64,000 nucleotides of DNA. It comes from Spirochaeta lutea (GTDB lineage Bacteria > Spirochaetota > Spirochaetia > DSM-27196 > Salinispiraceae). Where the stretch lies: the NCBI RefSeq assembly GCF_000758165.1, contig NZ_JNUP01000066.1:81235-145234 (forward strand), given 5' to 3'. A program made the position numbers and the translations under genes. Below, in pieces: positions 24,264 through 31,010 of this stretch; the stretch's first letter is position 1; the number at the start of each line of letters is the position of its first letter. The notes beneath the pieces were generated by a model. The model worked only from the letters and a program-made list of their open reading frames with translations. It was not told where the DNA came from and made no database searches.

Positions 24264-24452
24264 TCCCGGATTGGGCACCCCCTGTTCCGAGCCGAATTTC
24301 GGTGGAACATGCTGCAAAGGACACCAGATATAGGGGAGCAACCTATAAGCCCACCCATGGGTGGTGTCGCCGGGGTGCAATGGTACAAGCTTTGCGCACT
24401 AAATAGTACTTACGCACCACCAAAAACCGGCTTAGCCTGCAACCAGTTAGGC
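24264..24452. other. Convergent intergenic region with palindromes
   Basis: Contains the perfect palindrome CCACCCATGGGTGG (24351-24364), a GGTGGTG/CACCACC pair (24360-24366 and 24415-24421) enclosing about 48 bases, and the MinD-side terminator. No gene seen. Confidence 0.5.
24422..24448 (-). terminator. Terminator of the MinD-like gene
   Basis: Minus strand AACTGG (24443-24448) pairs with CCGGTT (24425-24430, one G-T pair) and runs into T residues (24426-24422), just after the stop codon. Confidence 0.5.
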
Positions 24453-26141
24453 CTATGGCCGTCCGGCCGAGCCTATTTCCTCCAGCAGCAGCTTGGTCGC
24501 CCGGGTAATCTCTCTGGCAGCCGGACTATCCTGGAGCCCCACGACCACTCCCAATCCGCTGTGAAAGAGATCAGTCACAACACGGTGCACCAGTTTTGCG
24601 TAGGCCTGGCGGTTATATCCCCCGCCATCAGATGCCCGGTCATCCGTTGGGTAGGTAAAGAGGAACTGCTCCAACCCCTGACTCTCGGCAATTCGCACAA
24701 GCTGTTTTTCTGCTATAGGAAAAAGCTGTTTAACCACTTCCACAATTCTGGACCGGAATGAGGTATTCCCATCCAGGACTCCTCTGATTTGGGAATACCT
24801 GTCCCGTACTGCGCCCTCAGGTCCGGGTCGCCGGGGGACTGCCCCGCGGACGATCCTGAGCAATGCGGGATGATCCAGTAGTTTCAGGAGGCTATAATAA
24901 AAGAGCAAAAGCCCTCCGGTGTTGCGTACCAGGGGATTCTCCCCGAGGATGGAGGACTGCTTTAGCTCCTTTAACAGGACTATCAGCCGGTACTCGAAGG
25001 ACTGGCGGATTCCCCGGAGCTGGGTGGGCGCCGAACAATCGTAGTACCGATACAACACCTCCCGTGCCTGATATGCCCCGGTTCTGCCAGGCTGGGAACC
25101 AACCAGATTCAGATATTCGGTCAGAGCATCAGCGACCCGGGGCTCTTCCCAGATGCTGCTGTAGCCAAGGACATCTTCCAGATAGGATCGAAGTTCCTCC
25201 TTACCCGGTCGAGAACCCAGGGCAATGAGTCCGTACCGTAAAAGCCTTCTAAAGGCAAGGGGCAGGGCATCCAAGGCATTAATGGAACAATCCTTGCCGG
25301 CCTCGGGGGTTAGCTGTTCAGTCAACAGGGTGAGAGCACCCTCACATCGGTAGAGTAATTGCAGGGTAAAATCAGGTTCGGTGAGCAAGAGGTTAAGAGC
25401 CTGATCCGGAGGGATCCATGCATCCTGGGTTATGCCACCGGGTATTTCTGCGGGGAGCTGAAGCTCCGGCGGAACGAACCTATTGTAGTTTCCAACAACG
25501 TCCCGGGCATTAAACGCTGGATCCCCATGAGGCTCGAAGCGGTTATGCCAGAACCGGAAACGGACATGAGGATTCACCTCCAATGCAGCCTTCATATATC
25601 CACCGGCGCTCACATGACTGGTGGGTTCCGGGTTCAGAACGATAATCAGCTCCTGGATGTAGGGCAACAGGTACAGGTTTTCCTGATTATGAATTCCCGC
25701 AGGAAGGTCAAGAATCAACACATCATAGTCATCAAGCAACCGGGGCCACAGCACCTGGAAAACCAAATTTCTCAGCTGCTTCACCTCCATCTCTTTCAAC
25801 TTGGCCCGGGGAAAGAGGATATGAAGATTCCGGGAAAATACCACCCGGTAATCCTCCAGATTATTGGAAGAATACCCCTGAGGAAGGGCGTCAATCCTGC
25901 TCTTCGGGATATCCAGAACAATACCAGTATTCGAAAGGGGGTCCATATCTAAAAGCCCTACCCGCAGTCCGGATGAGGCTGCAGATAGGGCAATATTTAC
26001 ACTGACGGTGGACTTACCGACCCCACCCTTCCCGGATCCGACAGCCACCAGAGATCCTGGTGATTTTGACGTTCCGCCGGATGGGGAGGGTGTTTTACGC
26101 TGGAGCACTTTCATGGTGCCACCATAGCCTTTTTCGCCCAT
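24453..26141 (-). CDS. MinD/ParA-type ATPase with large unknown C-terminal domain
   Basis: 562 residues if started at ATG 26141, one base after the upstream ABC gene stop; ATG 26114 is an alternative and neither has a clear ribosome binding site. The N-terminal 260 residues are a deviant-Walker-A ATPase: GSGKGGVGKST (signature lysines K38 and K43), LLDMDPLSNTG and Walker B VLILDLPAG. Proteins of this fold position membrane-linked or polar complexes (MinD, FlhG, ParA). The remaining 300 residues are helical and not recognised (YRLIVLLKELKQSS, LLLFYYSLLKLLDHPALLRIV). Placement directly behind two ABC exporter genes suggests a shared transcript. MinD-like membrane targeting helix not evident. 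Confidence 0.85.
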   Translation of the reverse strand: MGEKGYGGTMKVLQRKTPSPSGGTSKSPGSLVAVGSGKGGVGKSTVSVNIALSAASSGLRVGLLDMDPLSNTGIVLDIPKSRIDALPQGYSSNNLEDYRVVFSRNLHILFPRAKLKEMEVKQLRNLVFQVLWPRLLDDYDVLILDLPAGIHNQENLYLLPYIQELIIVLNPEPTSHVSAGGYMKAALEVNPHVRFRFWHNRFEPHGDPAFNARDVVGNYNRFVPPELQLPAEIPGGITQDAWIPPDQALNLLLTEPDFTLQLLYRCEGALTLLTEQLTPEAGKDCSINALDALPLAFRRLLRYGLIALGSRPGKEELRSYLEDVLGYSSIWEEPRVADALTEYLNLVGSQPGRTGAYQAREVLYRYYDCSAPTQLRGIRQSFEYRLIVLLKELKQSSILGENPLVRNTGGLLLFYYSLLKLLDHPALLRIVRGAVPRRPGPEGAVRDRYSQIRGVLDGNTSFRSRIVEVVKQLFPIAEKQLVRIAESQGLEQFLFTYPTDDRASDGGGYNRQAYAKLVHRVVTDLFHSGLGVVVGLQDSPAAREITRATKLLLEEIGSAGRP

Positions 26142-26142
26142 T

Positions 26143-27960
26143 TTAGGAAAGAAGAACCCGCTCTTTCTCTTCAATAAATTGATTGCGGTACAACCGGTGG
26201 TATATACCCTCGGCGGCCATCAGCTCCCGGTGGGTTCCGTCCTCCATAATCCGCCCCTTGTCGATCACAAGAATTCTGTCAGCATCCACAATGGTTGAAA
26301 GCCGGTGGGCAATAACAAAACTCGTCCTATGACTGAGAACCTTCTGAATAGCCTGCTGAATCAGCAGTTCGGTCTCAGTATCGATGGAGCTGGTAGCTTC
26401 ATCGAGAATAAGCAATGCAGGATCAGCCAGGACCGCTCGGGCGAAGCTGATGAGCTGTTTCTGTCCCGTGGACAATAAACCGCCTTCCTCGCCGACCGGA
26501 GTATCATACCCCTTGGGAAGCTGGACAATAAACTCATGAGCCATGGCGGTTTTAGCCGCTTCTTCAATCTCCTGGTCCGTCGCATCCAGCCGCCCGTACC
26601 GTATGTTATCCCGAATACTCCCGCTAAAAAGCTGGGGACTCTGCAGTACATAACCCAGGTTCCCGTGAAGGCAGGCCTGTCCATATTCATGGTAGTCCCG
26701 GCCGTCGATCAGAATCCGACCGGAGCTGGGTTCAAAGAACCGGCATACAAGATTCACTATGGTGCTTTTCCCCGAACCGGTTGCCCCGACGAGGGCGATG
26801 GTCTGTCCGGACTCAACCCGAAGATTGAAGTGTTCTAACACCTGTTCGCCCTTCTCATAGGTAAAACTGACATCCTTGAACTCGATCTCTCCCCGAAGCT
26901 TGGGCCAGGCCTGGTATTTTGGGGTGATTGTATCGCCGTAGCGCTGGATGATTTCCTGGCTGTCGGTTATCTTCGCCTCGGTCTCCAGCAGGTTAAATAC
27001 CCGCTCTCCTGCAGCCCGGGCGGACTGCAGCTCGCTGAACACCCTCGCCAACTCCCGTAAGGGATCGAAAAACTGGGCTGTGTAGGAGAGAAAGGCCGCC
27101 AATGTCCCGAAGGTGATTATCTCCATATTCACCCGGATACCACCGTTCCACAGGGCTAAGGCGGTACCGATAGCCCCGAACACCACCACCACCGGCTGAT
27201 ACAGGCTTGAAAACAGAGCGCTTTTTACACTCATGAAGTCCATACGCCGGGTATAGTGGGCAAATTCATCACAGGCATCCTGCTCGCGGCTCAGACTCTT
27301 TGTGGTTGCCGCCCCCATGAGTCCCTCGTTATAGCTGGCGGTGAGCCTGCTGTTGGTACGCCGGACCAGACGCTGGGAGCGTAGGATTTTTGTCTGAAAA
27401 AACCGGCTGATCCATACCAAGAGGGGAACAACCGACAGGGTCACCAGGGCAAGCTGCCAGTTCAGAACCAGCATAATCACCACAATCCCGGTGATGGTAG
27501 TGAAACCCCAAACAATATCTACGAAGCCCCAGCTAATGGTCTGACCGATCTTCTGGATATCACTGGTTAGCCGGCTCATGAGCCAGCCGCCAGGGGTCTT
27601 ATTAAAGTAATTCAGTTCCAGATCCTGGAGATGCCGGAAACTCCGGTTTCGAAGATCGTGCATAATTGCCATCTCCAAGTATCCAGCGAGCATGATCAGC
27701 GCCAGGACGTTTATTCCCTGCCACAATACCACAGCCAAAAAGCCGATAATAAATCCTTCTAGGCCTTGGATGGTTCCCGGTACGATAAACCGGTCCACCG
27801 CTTGTTGTGTCCAGAGGGCGAAGGTAGCATCGATACCTCCGACCATGATCATCACCAACCCCAGGGCCGCCGTTTGCAGGCGGTATGGCCTGAGGAAGGG
27901 AAGCAGCCTTCGAACGAAGGGCTGCTTGGTTTGTTTTCTCTTTTTTCGTCTGCCTTCCAT
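26143..27960 (-). CDS. ABC exporter subunit with intact catalytic glutamate
   Basis: 605 residues: a basic N-terminus, six predicted membrane helices (about residues 20-330) and a C-terminal ATPase with Walker A GATGSGKST, Walker B LLILDEATSSID (catalytic Glu present) and the variant signature LSTGQKQL in place of LSGGQ. Together with the partner three bases upstream this makes an asymmetric heterodimeric exporter of the TM287/288, LmrCD or YheHI kind: its Walker motifs pair with the partner's normal LSGGQ to form the active site. Substrates in this group are mostly drugs, lipids or peptides and cannot be predicted here. Confidence 0.93.
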   Translation of the reverse strand: MEGRRKKRKQTKQPFVRRLLPFLRPYRLQTAALGLVMIMVGGIDATFALWTQQAVDRFIVPGTIQGLEGFIIGFLAVVLWQGINVLALIMLAGYLEMAIMHDLRNRSFRHLQDLELNYFNKTPGGWLMSRLTSDIQKIGQTISWGFVDIVWGFTTITGIVVIMLVLNWQLALVTLSVVPLLVWISRFFQTKILRSQRLVRRTNSRLTASYNEGLMGAATTKSLSREQDACDEFAHYTRRMDFMSVKSALFSSLYQPVVVVFGAIGTALALWNGGIRVNMEIITFGTLAAFLSYTAQFFDPLRELARVFSELQSARAAGERVFNLLETEAKITDSQEIIQRYGDTITPKYQAWPKLRGEIEFKDVSFTYEKGEQVLEHFNLRVESGQTIALVGATGSGKSTIVNLVCRFFEPSSGRILIDGRDYHEYGQACLHGNLGYVLQSPQLFSGSIRDNIRYGRLDATDQEIEEAAKTAMAHEFIVQLPKGYDTPVGEEGGLLSTGQKQLISFARAVLADPALLILDEATSSIDTETELLIQQAIQKVLSHRTSFVIAHRLSTIVDADRILVIDKGRIMEDGTHRELMAAEGIYHRLYRNQFIEEKERVLLS

Positions 27961-27963
27961 AGT

Positions 27964-29748
27964 TTACACCTCTATTCCTTGGTTCTGGAGAGCATGAAGT
28001 CTTGAGAACAAGCCGTCATGCTCCAGAAGCTGTGCAGGACTGCCCTGCTCCACAAGCCGTCCGTTCTCCATGACCAAGACCAGATCGGCCTTCATCAGGG
28101 TCGACAACCGATGACTGATAAGCATCACCGTCCGGTCGGAGGCGCGTTTACGGATCGCCTCCTGTACAGCCCGGTCGGTTTCGGTATCCAGAGCTGATAG
28201 GCTATCGTCGAATATGAGAATCGGCGCCTGGGCCACCAGAGCCCTGGCAATAGCCACCCGCTGTTTTTGTCCACCCGAAAGGGTTACCCCGCGCTCACCC
28301 ACCGGGGTATCATATCCCGCCTCGAAATCCACGATGGACTGGTGGATGGAAGCATCTCGGGCAGCCTCAAAGATCTCAACCTCGCTGATATTCCGAGCTC
28401 CAACCCCGATATTCCTCTTAATGGTTTTGGCATAGAGAAAGGGCTCTTGGAGCACCAGACTCACCTGGCGTCGTAACCATGCCTTGTCAAAATCCTGGAG
28501 TGGCACCCCATCTATACTGATACTTCCCTGGGTAGGGGCGTAAAACCCCGCGATCAAACCCACCAGGCTCGTTTTTCCTGAGCCGGTATGTCCCAGGATT
28601 CCCACCGTCTGACCGGACTCTATGGTGAAATTCAGATCCTGTAATACGGGGCTTCCCGGTTCATACTCAAGGCTTACCCCCTTGAACTCAATGGCTCCCG
28701 TCAGTTTCTGGCGAATTCCCTGGGGATTCATGGACTCAGGCTCCTGGTCTAGAATTTCCTGAATACGCTCCATGGCAACAAAGGCCTTCCCCATGTCCAC
28801 CAAAACACGCCCCATCTGCCGCACCGGCCATAAAATCATCCAGACCGACGAAACAAATAAGATGAGGGTTCCAATGGTGACCGTCCCCTGGACGGCCCAG
28901 AGGGTTCCCACACAGATAACAGCCAAGACCTGGGTCAAACTCATAATGTCCGTACTGGCCCAGAAGGCTGCGAACCACTGGATAAGCCGCATCGTTACCC
29001 GGCGGTAGTCCTCATTTAATGCCCTGAAGCGGCCGTATTCGTACCCCTCCCGACCAAAGGCCCGTACAACCCGGATGCCGGTAAGATGTTCCTGAACCAT
29101 GCTGGTCAGAGCAGCCTCAGCCTCATCGCTGCGACGAAAAGAACTCTGAATCTTTCCGAAGAACAGGATACTGGCCACCGTCGCCAGGGGAATAATGGGC
29201 ATGGCTACCCAGGCTAACTCCACATGCACCTGGAAGGTCACCACCAAACTGACGGTAACGAGAAATATGGCATTTCCCACCTGTACCAGCTGCAGGGCCA
29301 AAAACTTCCGCACCGTATCCACATCGCTGGTACACCTCTGCAGCAGATCACCCTTTTCACTCCGGGCATGGTATGCGAAGGGCAGATACTGTAGGTGATG
29401 GTAGAGGCGATTCCTGAGGTCCCGGGCGGAACCCTCGCTGGCCTTAGCAGCCAGGTACCCCGATAGGAATACGAATATACCCTGAACCAGCGCGGAGGAA
29501 ACCAGCAAAATTCCGGGTATCCACAACCGCTGTGAGAGGACCTCCCGTCCGCCTAGGGCGGTAAAAAGCCAGATAATCTCCCGCCGCCCGGAGAATGCTT
29601 CCGTGCCAATCACCGAGTCGATGGTTGCCCGGAGAATGAGGGGGCTGTAGTAGGCGAAAATCGCCCCGAATCCCATGAATAAGATGGCTACACCGTACAT
29701 GAGCCGGTATCCCTTCATCATGTTCCAAATTTTTTGTAGGTTGTTCAT
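27964..29748 (-). CDS. ABC exporter subunit with degenerate catalytic site
   Basis: 594 residues from ATG 29748 (the TTG at 29790 has no support). Six membrane helices precede an ATPase with Walker A GHTGSGKTS, signature LSGGQKQR and Walker B ILIFDDSLSALD, where the catalytic Glu is Asp. That substitution, with LSTGQ in the partner, is the known pattern of heterodimeric exporters having one degenerate ATP site. It is the first protein-coding gene of the exporter-MinD unit, with 300 bp of structured leader and a possible small ORF before it. Confidence 0.93.
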   Translation of the reverse strand: MNNLQKIWNMMKGYRLMYGVAILFMGFGAIFAYYSPLILRATIDSVIGTEAFSGRREIIWLFTALGGREVLSQRLWIPGILLVSSALVQGIFVFLSGYLAAKASEGSARDLRNRLYHHLQYLPFAYHARSEKGDLLQRCTSDVDTVRKFLALQLVQVGNAIFLVTVSLVVTFQVHVELAWVAMPIIPLATVASILFFGKIQSSFRRSDEAEAALTSMVQEHLTGIRVVRAFGREGYEYGRFRALNEDYRRVTMRLIQWFAAFWASTDIMSLTQVLAVICVGTLWAVQGTVTIGTLILFVSSVWMILWPVRQMGRVLVDMGKAFVAMERIQEILDQEPESMNPQGIRQKLTGAIEFKGVSLEYEPGSPVLQDLNFTIESGQTVGILGHTGSGKTSLVGLIAGFYAPTQGSISIDGVPLQDFDKAWLRRQVSLVLQEPFLYAKTIKRNIGVGARNISEVEIFEAARDASIHQSIVDFEAGYDTPVGERGVTLSGGQKQRVAIARALVAQAPILIFDDSLSALDTETDRAVQEAIRKRASDRTVMLISHRLSTLMKADLVLVMENGRLVEQGSPAQLLEHDGLFSRLHALQNQGIEV

Positions 29749-29790
29749 AACAATTCTCTTTTGTCTTCCATTGCTGATTCCATTCAGCAA

Positions 29791-30048
29791 GCTTCACGAA
29801 TACCATTTGAAGGATGCTCTACCCGGGCTTCCCCGGATACCCGGGGACACAGGTTCTGCAGGTACGGCATTATTCCTGGTTACCGGGTGCAGGGCCCATG
29901 CACAGCCGGGTTGAATGTATTGAATCCAATACATAGCCCGGAACGGTAGCCAAACCGAACCTGAGTCTGGATAGTGAGACGGCGAAACTGTGTAATAGGT
30001 GGATGCGATTACCCAGTCTCCAAGATCTGGAGCCGGGCTGATGAACCT
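29791..30048. other. Structured leader upstream of the ABC exporter
   Basis: No large gene. It contains TCCCCGG-ATAC-CCGGGGA (29830-29847), a long hairpin CCGGG...ATGTATTG-AATC-CAATACAT...CCCGG (29906-29941) and a TGATGAACC/GGTTTCATCA hairpin around the stop of the small ORF (about 30038-30062). Such a series of stems between a small ORF and an exporter operon looks like an attenuation leader or an operator region. Confidence 0.45.
29906..29941. repeat. Inverted repeat (8-bp perfect core) in the exporter leader
   Basis: ATGTATTG (29915-29922), AATC loop, CAATACAT (29927-29934), extended by CCGGG (29906-29910) and CCCGG (29937-29941). Could be an operator half-site pair or an RNA stem. Confidence 0.7.
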
Positions 30049-30177
30049 CTAGGGTTTCATCAAGAGAAGGTGTCCCCTTGGAACGTCCGCATCATGCCCG
30101 TATACGCAGCGTGCCGCGTTCACATCACCAACACTCATACCGATGTAACTAATTGCTAACTGCGCACTCTTCAACAT
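30049..30177 (-). CDS. Possible small peptide, 42 residues
   Basis: ATG 30177 has AAGGAG exactly eight bases upstream (30186-30191) and promoter-like boxes before that: TTGATA (30237-30242), 16 bases, TATACC (30215-30220). The peptide begins MLKSAQLAISYIGMSVGDVN, with a mildly hydrophobic first half, one Cys and a basic/His-containing end finishing in LLLMKP. It matches nothing I know. It could be a leader peptide controlling the exporter genes 300 bp downstream, a substrate of that exporter, or chance. The ribosome binding site is better than those of most annotated genes here. Confidence 0.4.
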   Translation of the reverse strand: MLKSAQLAISYIGMSVGDVNAARCVYGHDADVPRGHLLLMKP

Positions 30178-30214
30178 GAATGACGCTCCTTTCTTAATAT
30201 ATAGGGTGCTAAAT

Positions 30215-30242
30215 GGTATACCGCAGAGATTCACTTTATCAA
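30215..30242 (-). promoter_or_regulatory. Candidate promoter of the small ORF/exporter unit
   Basis: Minus strand TTGATA-16-TATACC; a second -10 candidate TATATT lies at 30197-30202. The area is flanked by an inverted repeat ACCGCAG (30220-30226) and CTGCGGT (30271-30277), next to eight T (30277-30284). Confidence 0.4.
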
Positions 30243-30320
30243 TAGGTTTTAACAACTTTTTTGTGGATACCTGCGGTTTTTTTTAAGAAAAGACCATAAA
30301 AATGATCCCGCTCGTGGGTG

Positions 30321-31010
30321 TTAGGCCTCGGAAATGTAGGGAATTAGGGCATCCGGGCGGGGAAGTACCGCAAGACACCGGTCCCGAACCCAGGATTCCA
30401 CGGGTCCAAGATCGGGTACGTGAATCACCCCGAGACCAGCAGCCTGGGCAGCGAGAAGCCCGCTTTGGGAATCCTCCAAGCCCAGGGCGTCTCCGGGAGA
30501 CACCCCCAGCCTGCGGCACAGGGTCAGGTATATTTCAGGATCTGGTTTATTATGCCGCACCTGATCCCCTGTGACGATCCGGGCGAAAAATCCGGATAAC
30601 CCGGAGGATTCAAGCTTTGCGGCAGCATAGGGATTTTGGGTTGAGGTTGCCACCCCCAGGGTGATTCCACGGCTCTGAGCCCAGTCCAAGAGGGTTTGGA
30701 CACCCGGTTTAACGGGTACCCCCCGGGAAGCGTAATAGGTTTTGGTATAATCAAACCGAAGGTCCAAAACCCGGTCATAGGGGTAATCCGGACCCAGGAT
30801 CGATAGGAATAGTTCTTTAGTCTGCTGATCGCTGCGGCCAATGGCCTTGACCATGAGCTCCCGGGGTATGGGATGCCCCAGATCCTCGGCAGCCTTAGAC
30901 CATTGCTCCAGGGCGAGGGCCTCGCTGTCGATGAGTAGCCCGTCCATGTCGAAACACATAGCTTGGGGCGCATTCAACGGTTTGGAAGGGAACCGATACT
31001 GGGGAGCCAT
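30321..31010 (-). CDS. HAD-superfamily hydrolase (beta-phosphoglucomutase-like)
   Basis: 229 residues from ATG 31010, eight bases after the stop of the EAL gene; a TTG overlapping that stop (TTGA) is the alternative. HAD motifs in order: FDMDGLLIDSE with the nucleophile Asp and acid/base Asp, ATST (motif II), K of NKPDPEIY (motif III) and LGLEDSQSGLLAA (motif IV). The small helical cap between motifs I and II fits the subfamily of beta-phosphoglucomutase and sugar-phosphate phosphatases. Substrate unknown. Probably co-transcribed with the GGDEF-EAL gene. Confidence 0.88.
   Translation of the reverse strand: MAPQYRFPSKPLNAPQAMCFDMDGLLIDSEALALEQWSKAAEDLGHPIPRELMVKAIGRSDQQTKELFLSILGPDYPYDRVLDLRFDYTKTYYASRGVPVKPGVQTLLDWAQSRGITLGVATSTQNPYAAAKLESSGLSGFFARIVTGDQVRHNKPDPEIYLTLCRRLGVSPGDALGLEDSQSGLLAAQAAGLGVIHVPDLGPVESWVRDRCLAVLPRPDALIPYISEA

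Follow-up and report, generated by a model that had tools for sequence, protein, structure and literature searches.

The exporter unit found in the 64,000-nucleotide stretch of Spirochaeta lutea DNA analysed here (the window, to which all coordinates refer) is preceded by a 42-codon open reading frame (ORF), MLKSAQLAISYIGMSVGDVNAARCVYGHDADVPRGHLLLMKP, and we consider it quite probable that this leader acts on the efflux-type ABC exporter as a leader-peptide attenuator, raising expression when ribosomes stall. The tiny ORF is probably a ribosome-stall sensor, because it is its position and not its sequence that recurs before the same pump. In the proposed mechanism transcription would start about 30 nt before the 42-codon ORF. 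As long as ribosomes pass through the ORF and come off it in the normal way, the leader RNA would adopt a fold with which few transcripts reach the exporter genes; if they slow down or stall on the ORF, in response to translation inhibitors and possibly to substrates of the pump, the fold would change and transcription would run on into ABC1-ABC2-MinD. The role of the peptide would be to be translated, its exact sequence mattering little.

All genes of the unit lie on the minus strand: a gene for a HAD-type phosphatase (ending at 30321), the leader ORF, the two exporter halves ABC1 (27964-29748, start codon ATG at 29748) and ABC2 (26143-27960), and, as the last gene, a MinD/ParA-like ATPase (24453-26114), directly after which there is a U-tract terminator-like hairpin with a T-run at 24427. 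ABC_membrane and ABC_tran were the sole clear Pfam domains in both halves, and an N-terminal peptidase domain (C39), which was looked for in the domain search of the exporter, was absent. Two adjacent TMD-NBD genes with one degenerate-looking ATP site, as in heterodimeric exporters of the BmrCD, TM287/288 and TmrAB kind, are present: in motifs read by eye, ABC1 has FDDS instead of DE in the Walker B region and a canonical LSGGQ, and ABC2 has a canonical LDEAT and a signature altered to LSTGQ. Compared with solved structures, both halves matched ABCB1 chains best, followed, depending on the half, by the Sav1866, TmrAB (which we take to be entries 5mkk/6raf), TM287/288 and BmrCD kinds. ABC1 and ABC2 matched the BmrC and BmrD chains (7m33, named YheI/YheH) with E values of 1.1e-81 and 3.5e-99, but other ABC exporters matched them as well or better.

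ABC2 followed ABC1 in all 15 regions fetched, being cut off in some. The exporter-MinD unit described in the initial annotation is real in the window, but the MinD gene is a neighbour at the family level only: in G001, of the same family, the gene after ABC2 shares 42% over 518 residues, whereas no MinD-like gene followed ABC2 in any of 11 further regions that extended far enough, so that the arrangement extends to one of 12 regions. The MinD/ParA-like ATPases of the window and of G001 have in common a long C-terminal part of no assigned family. In G001 (locus L066) the gene before the leader appeared by eye to encode an EAL-domain protein, with no evident HAD gene in between; an EAL/GGDEF gene is likewise found upstream in the window (32602-31019).

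The leader ORF occupies positions 30049-30177 of the minus strand (ATG at 30177, TAG at 30051-30049), a position common to the relatives, and its stop codon is separated from the exporter start by 300 nt. It is preceded by the Shine-Dalgarno (SD) sequence AAAGGAG, which with the spacer covers 30178-30192 of the same strand. Thus the claim from which we started, a 42-codon ORF with a strong ribosome-binding site about 300 nt before a heterodimeric exporter and on its strand, was confirmed, and comparison with relatives placed it above chance. The promoter-like boxes also claimed there do exist on the minus strand between 30242 and 30215: TTGATA (30242-30237) is followed by TATACC (30220-30215) after a 16-nt spacer or by TACCAT after 18 nt, with 9 of 12 positions matching and 37 nt from the end of the -10 box to the ORF start. 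The match taken alone is within the range of shuffles, which often reached the same score (p 0.26), and a scan for boxes found one where 2.0 were expected. Among the relatives, 11 of 15 representatives reached a -35/-10 score of at least 9/12 upstream of the ORF, and the mean score over all 20 leaders scored was 8.50, vs 6.92 for shuffled sequences. The distance between the -10 box and the ORF was mostly 31-43 nt in related leaders with a good box match. On the plus strand, positions 30215-30284 read as a terminator, GGTATACCGCAG ... CCTGCGGT forming an inverted repeat with eight consecutive T after it; this element and the leader promoter's -10 box overlap, and no plus-strand gene is evident there.

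The evidence for a function of the ORF comes from the DNA upstream of orthologous exporters. Orthologs of ABC1 were detected at E<=1e-150 in 23 of 61 genomes, and one more was added from the search of the order at E<=1e-140, giving a spirochaete set of 24 loci including that of the window, 23 of them with at least 300 nt of upstream DNA. By a strict rule (ATG-started ORF of 8-60 codons, SD match of at least 5 nt, within 500 nt upstream) an ORF was present at 18 of these 23 loci; the opposite strand gave 2, and shuffled sequences gave a mean of 1.6 and a maximum of 4. Inspection by eye raised the number to 21 of 23, with ORFs of 12-42 codons. The strict rule had missed three loci: L071, with an ORF start at -524, and L078 and L081, whose SD is limited to GGAG. 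The two loci lacking the ORF are L084 and L086, where another gene, mechanosensitive-channel-like as judged by eye only, reaches close to ABC1. With a crude gene caller, and with the locus of the window counted twice among the 50, such ORFs were found in 27 of 50 gaps before ABC1 vs 10 of 112 gaps of 200-1000 nt elsewhere in the same loci.

The pattern extends in part to more distant relatives. Named genomes, chiefly of Firmicutes together with some of Chloroflexi and Bacteroidota, contributed 80 loci, of which 17 had an ORF when an SD match of at least 6 nt was demanded (opposite strand 2, shuffles 1.4). Of 42 loci from further members of the class, 19 had one (shuffles 4.7, opposite strand 5), and 23 of the 42, including five genomes of the genus g32, had none by the rule applied. 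An alternative is that the ORF and stems of the window arose by chance, the exporter simply having a long untranslated leader and its true control lying at the promoter. The absence of a homologue of the peptide, the weak promoter match and the near-background structure after the stop codon (z -1.55) would agree with this, but an ATG-started ORF with a 6-nt SD stands at a position that also holds an ORF in 20 of the remaining 22 orthologs for which upstream DNA was available, and we regard chance as unlikely.

What recurs is the position and not the peptide. No convincing relative of the leader peptide was found among the 295 other genomes of the phylum (296 including its own, which gave only the self-match); weak matches, e.g. 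one of 33% inside a 459-residue frame with E 0.0028, were taken as chance. Searched as DNA, the whole leader matched nothing in plasmids or phages; its matches in its own genome and in 60 relatives were all short and were taken as chance. Even with the peptide of G001, the closest relative, no clear similarity was seen. Lack of conservation of the ORF in relatives had been named beforehand as the finding that would speak against it, and the outcome was split: the sequence is lost, whereas position and architecture are kept.

In a set of 38 leaders the peptides are 9-42 residues long, drift fast and are unlike in length and composition; similarity persists within genera and between two families. 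The peptides of L075 and L078, equal in length at 28 codons, agree at 11 of 28 positions (p 1/3001 by shuffling, with 231 pairs tested), and the window peptide occurs in none of the best 16 of these 231 pairs. A codon test in close species pairs, from which the L072-L077 row was left out since its codons were unaligned, gave no signal of purifying selection on the amino acids, at low power. Because close species pairs lack such selection, the amino acids as such seem to be little constrained. Two small groups of related peptides were noticed: those of L192, L194, L195 and L202 have a common 'AVD'-like core (e.g. MNRIKAFTLRTVDGPVAHRNR, MYRFKAFSALAVDRPMAYRTR), and those of L221, L223 and L225, all of one family, begin with MLSI and have TLNPV/KLNPV-like cores.

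The initial annotation had also offered that the ORF might encode an exported peptide; this would be a small secreted or signalling peptide carried out by the pump. A peptide gene adjoining an exporter on one strand is what such a system would look like, but the exporter has no peptidase domain of the C39 type, and the precursor is not conserved as would be expected for a bacteriocin-like substrate: the peptides of relatives differ in length and composition, G001 offers nothing clearly similar, and amino-acid change is neutral in close pairs. Since the sequence drifts freely and the pump lacks the peptidase domain, this reading is unsupported, and we give it hardly any credence.

Some bias in composition was noted at the C-terminus. 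In 33 leaders proline made up 19 of 132 residues in the last four positions vs 34 of 733 elsewhere (p 1e-4, post hoc and uncorrected for 20 residues); in an independent set of 20 peptides from the wider class set, doubtful ORFs included, the corresponding numbers were 8/80 and 18/382 (p 0.10). The excess of C-terminal proline is thus a hint only. Arrest of the TnaC type occurs at a C-terminal proline, and the window peptide, which ends in MKP, resembles TnaC in this respect, as does the leader set with its over-representation of proline in the last four residues; unlike the case of TnaC, no TnaC-like sequence was recognised here, and the excess did not go beyond p 0.10 in the independent set. 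Arg-Leu-Arg, which PMC8632094 reports as a motif of leader peptides for antibiotic resistance, occurs in the L087 peptide, MKMFFYLVPRHFPLPVRLRSI.

Part of the relatives have a terminator in the right place. A hairpin with a U-tract lies between the ORF and the exporter in 21 of the 38 leaders, 7 of these 21 being among the 21 spirochaete leaders. The ORF was complementary to the 5' arm of the terminator at p<=0.05 in seven of the 21 terminator-bearing leaders (the closely related L079 and L080, and L085, L087, L104, L121 and L129), the best case being L085 with 16 bp; in the other 14 the complementarity was not significant. A gap-free helix score, used in place of RNAduplex, whose chained pairings spanned the entire ORF, reached significance in only 3 of 16 representatives when its target was everything downstream. 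Complementarity between ORF and terminator arm is the arrangement that would be expected if a ribosome-controlled segment of the ORF competed with formation of the terminator. As to the two roles proposed at the outset, the attenuator is thus favoured by the positional ORF, the frequent terminators and some pairing between ORF and arm, and the exported peptide is disfavoured by the drift and the missing peptidase domain.

The RNA of the window's own leader gave a less simple picture. The whole 570-nt region folds below shuffles (z -4.67, none of 100 shuffles being as low), but the plus strand of the same region is nearly as stable (z -3.61). The signal comes mostly from the 5' UTR and the ORF (z -3.33); the part after the ORF stop is the near-background portion mentioned above, with 15 of 200 shuffles as stable. 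A fold of this strength could point to a ligand-binding riboswitch or a protein-bound RNA element as the controller of the exporter. We hold this to be very unlikely: besides the folding of the plus strand, there is no nucleotide conservation in relatives, and no Rfam family reached its gathering threshold in the window. Four weak permissive Rfam matches in the region, with E up to 5, were taken as chance; weak matches of this kind fall on the plus-strand repeat at 30215-30284.

The structural features listed in the initial annotation were all found on the minus strand. The stop codon of the leader ORF lies in the loop of a hairpin (30062-30039; -7.5 to -8.8 kcal/mol) whose stability is within chance when taken alone (z +0.37 in a 54-nt window); across 16 representatives stop codons tend toward local structure (mean z -1.22). 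The two further stems are real inverted repeats, CCGGGCTATGTATTGGATTCAATACATTCAACCCGG at 29941-29906 and CCCCGGGTATCCGGGG at 29846-29831, the latter with an adjoining GTGT (29831-29850 in all) and no U-tract after it. Unlike the end of the operon, the interval between leader ORF and exporter in the window contains no U-tract (intrinsic) terminator. The best pairing of the ORF with the downstream leader is an 8-bp candidate, a possible long-range alternative pairing between the ORF segment GGGGACAC (30070-30077) and GTGTCCCC (29850-29843); its p against shuffles is 0.34, and it was not populated in a modelled 516-nt transcript. Placing a ribosome on the ORF in the folding model, with the exporter start set at 29751 (3 nt off), produced no clean two-state switch. 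For these reasons, namely the missing U-tract terminator, the p of 0.34 and the lack of a clean switch in the model, the stopping step in the window leader is deduced from its context: the window's leader would work like the attenuators of its relatives, and both the agent that stalls the ribosome and the way in which transcription stops are assigned to it by inference.

One form of the same sensor that would do without an intrinsic terminator has a translational or Rho-dependent off-switch, in which a Rho loading stretch, or the start of the exporter, becomes accessible or masked depending on where the ribosome stands on the ORF. It is a sub-case of the attenuator reading. That the leader lacks a U-tract terminator although the operon end has one argues for it, as does a stretch of C over G (19 vs 11 in 60 nt) starting about 30 nt past the ORF stop, and the available text of PMC12121999 indicates, with toiL-topAI, that such uORFs exist. 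The C excess, a raw count, is mild, and the SD and start of the exporter were unpaired to about 65% in the ribosome-free fold and to 42-66% once a ribosome was placed. Control through a hidden exporter start found no support in the model, since ribosome-placement folding, with the start set 3 nt off, did not hide the exporter RBS. For the window we regard this form as conceivable but on balance doubtful.

Returning to the attenuator as such, the nearest parallel is bmrB-bmrCD of Bacillus subtilis, in which a heterodimeric multidrug ABC exporter is controlled by ribosome-mediated transcription attenuation (PMC4191407). As there, a short SD-led ORF, its translation being predicted, precedes a two-gene exporter on the same strand; a terminator with competing pairing is also shared, but in part of the window's relatives only. 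The terminator of bmrB is located within its ORF (PMC4191407), whereas in the window 300 nt separate the end of the ORF from the exporter and a U-tract terminator is absent. The window leader works most like bmrB-bmrCD, of which it is a variant rather than a member because the bmrB terminator feature fails in the window. By analogy with bmrB-bmrCD, the leader peptide may sense an inhibitor exported by the pump. Other systems share single features. Before the ABC exporter pair patAB of Streptococcus pneumoniae, a terminator, an antiterminator and an anti-antiterminator were predicted (PMC4319486, in part), but the term 'leader peptide' has no occurrences in the text of that paper as available. 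The uORF toiL of E. coli senses ribosome inhibitors and Rho stops the transcript (PMC12121999, available text), as might happen here, but it controls a toxin-antitoxin system, topAI, and not an exporter. A premature-terminator survey (PMC2965389) predicted attenuators, the ABC-leaders, in front of operons for ABC transporters, including that of a multidrug exporter in lactobacilli, and did not settle how they work; in its available text 'spiroch' and 'treponema' have no occurrences. For spirochaetes, searches of open-licence papers yielded no exporter under the control of a leader-peptide attenuator.

A wider hypothesis would cover the exporter family across spirochaetes and partly in Firmicutes and Chloroflexi. 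Fast-evolving leader ORFs would serve as general ribosome-stall sensors, selection keeping an ORF with an SD and about 20-40 codons, often with a proline near the stop and with pairing to the terminator, but not the peptide; in the lineage of the window the intrinsic terminator would have been lost and replaced by the stop-codon hairpin together with Rho-dependent or translational control. In this full form we consider the hypothesis speculative and rather unlikely. L085, L087 and L079, among others, offer testable leaders with clear terminators before exporters of the same family. The results suggest that a multidrug-type exporter of spirochaetes is controlled in response to antibiotics, and they point to a regulatory uORF that is recognisable by its position and architecture after its sequence has drifted beyond the reach of homology searches.
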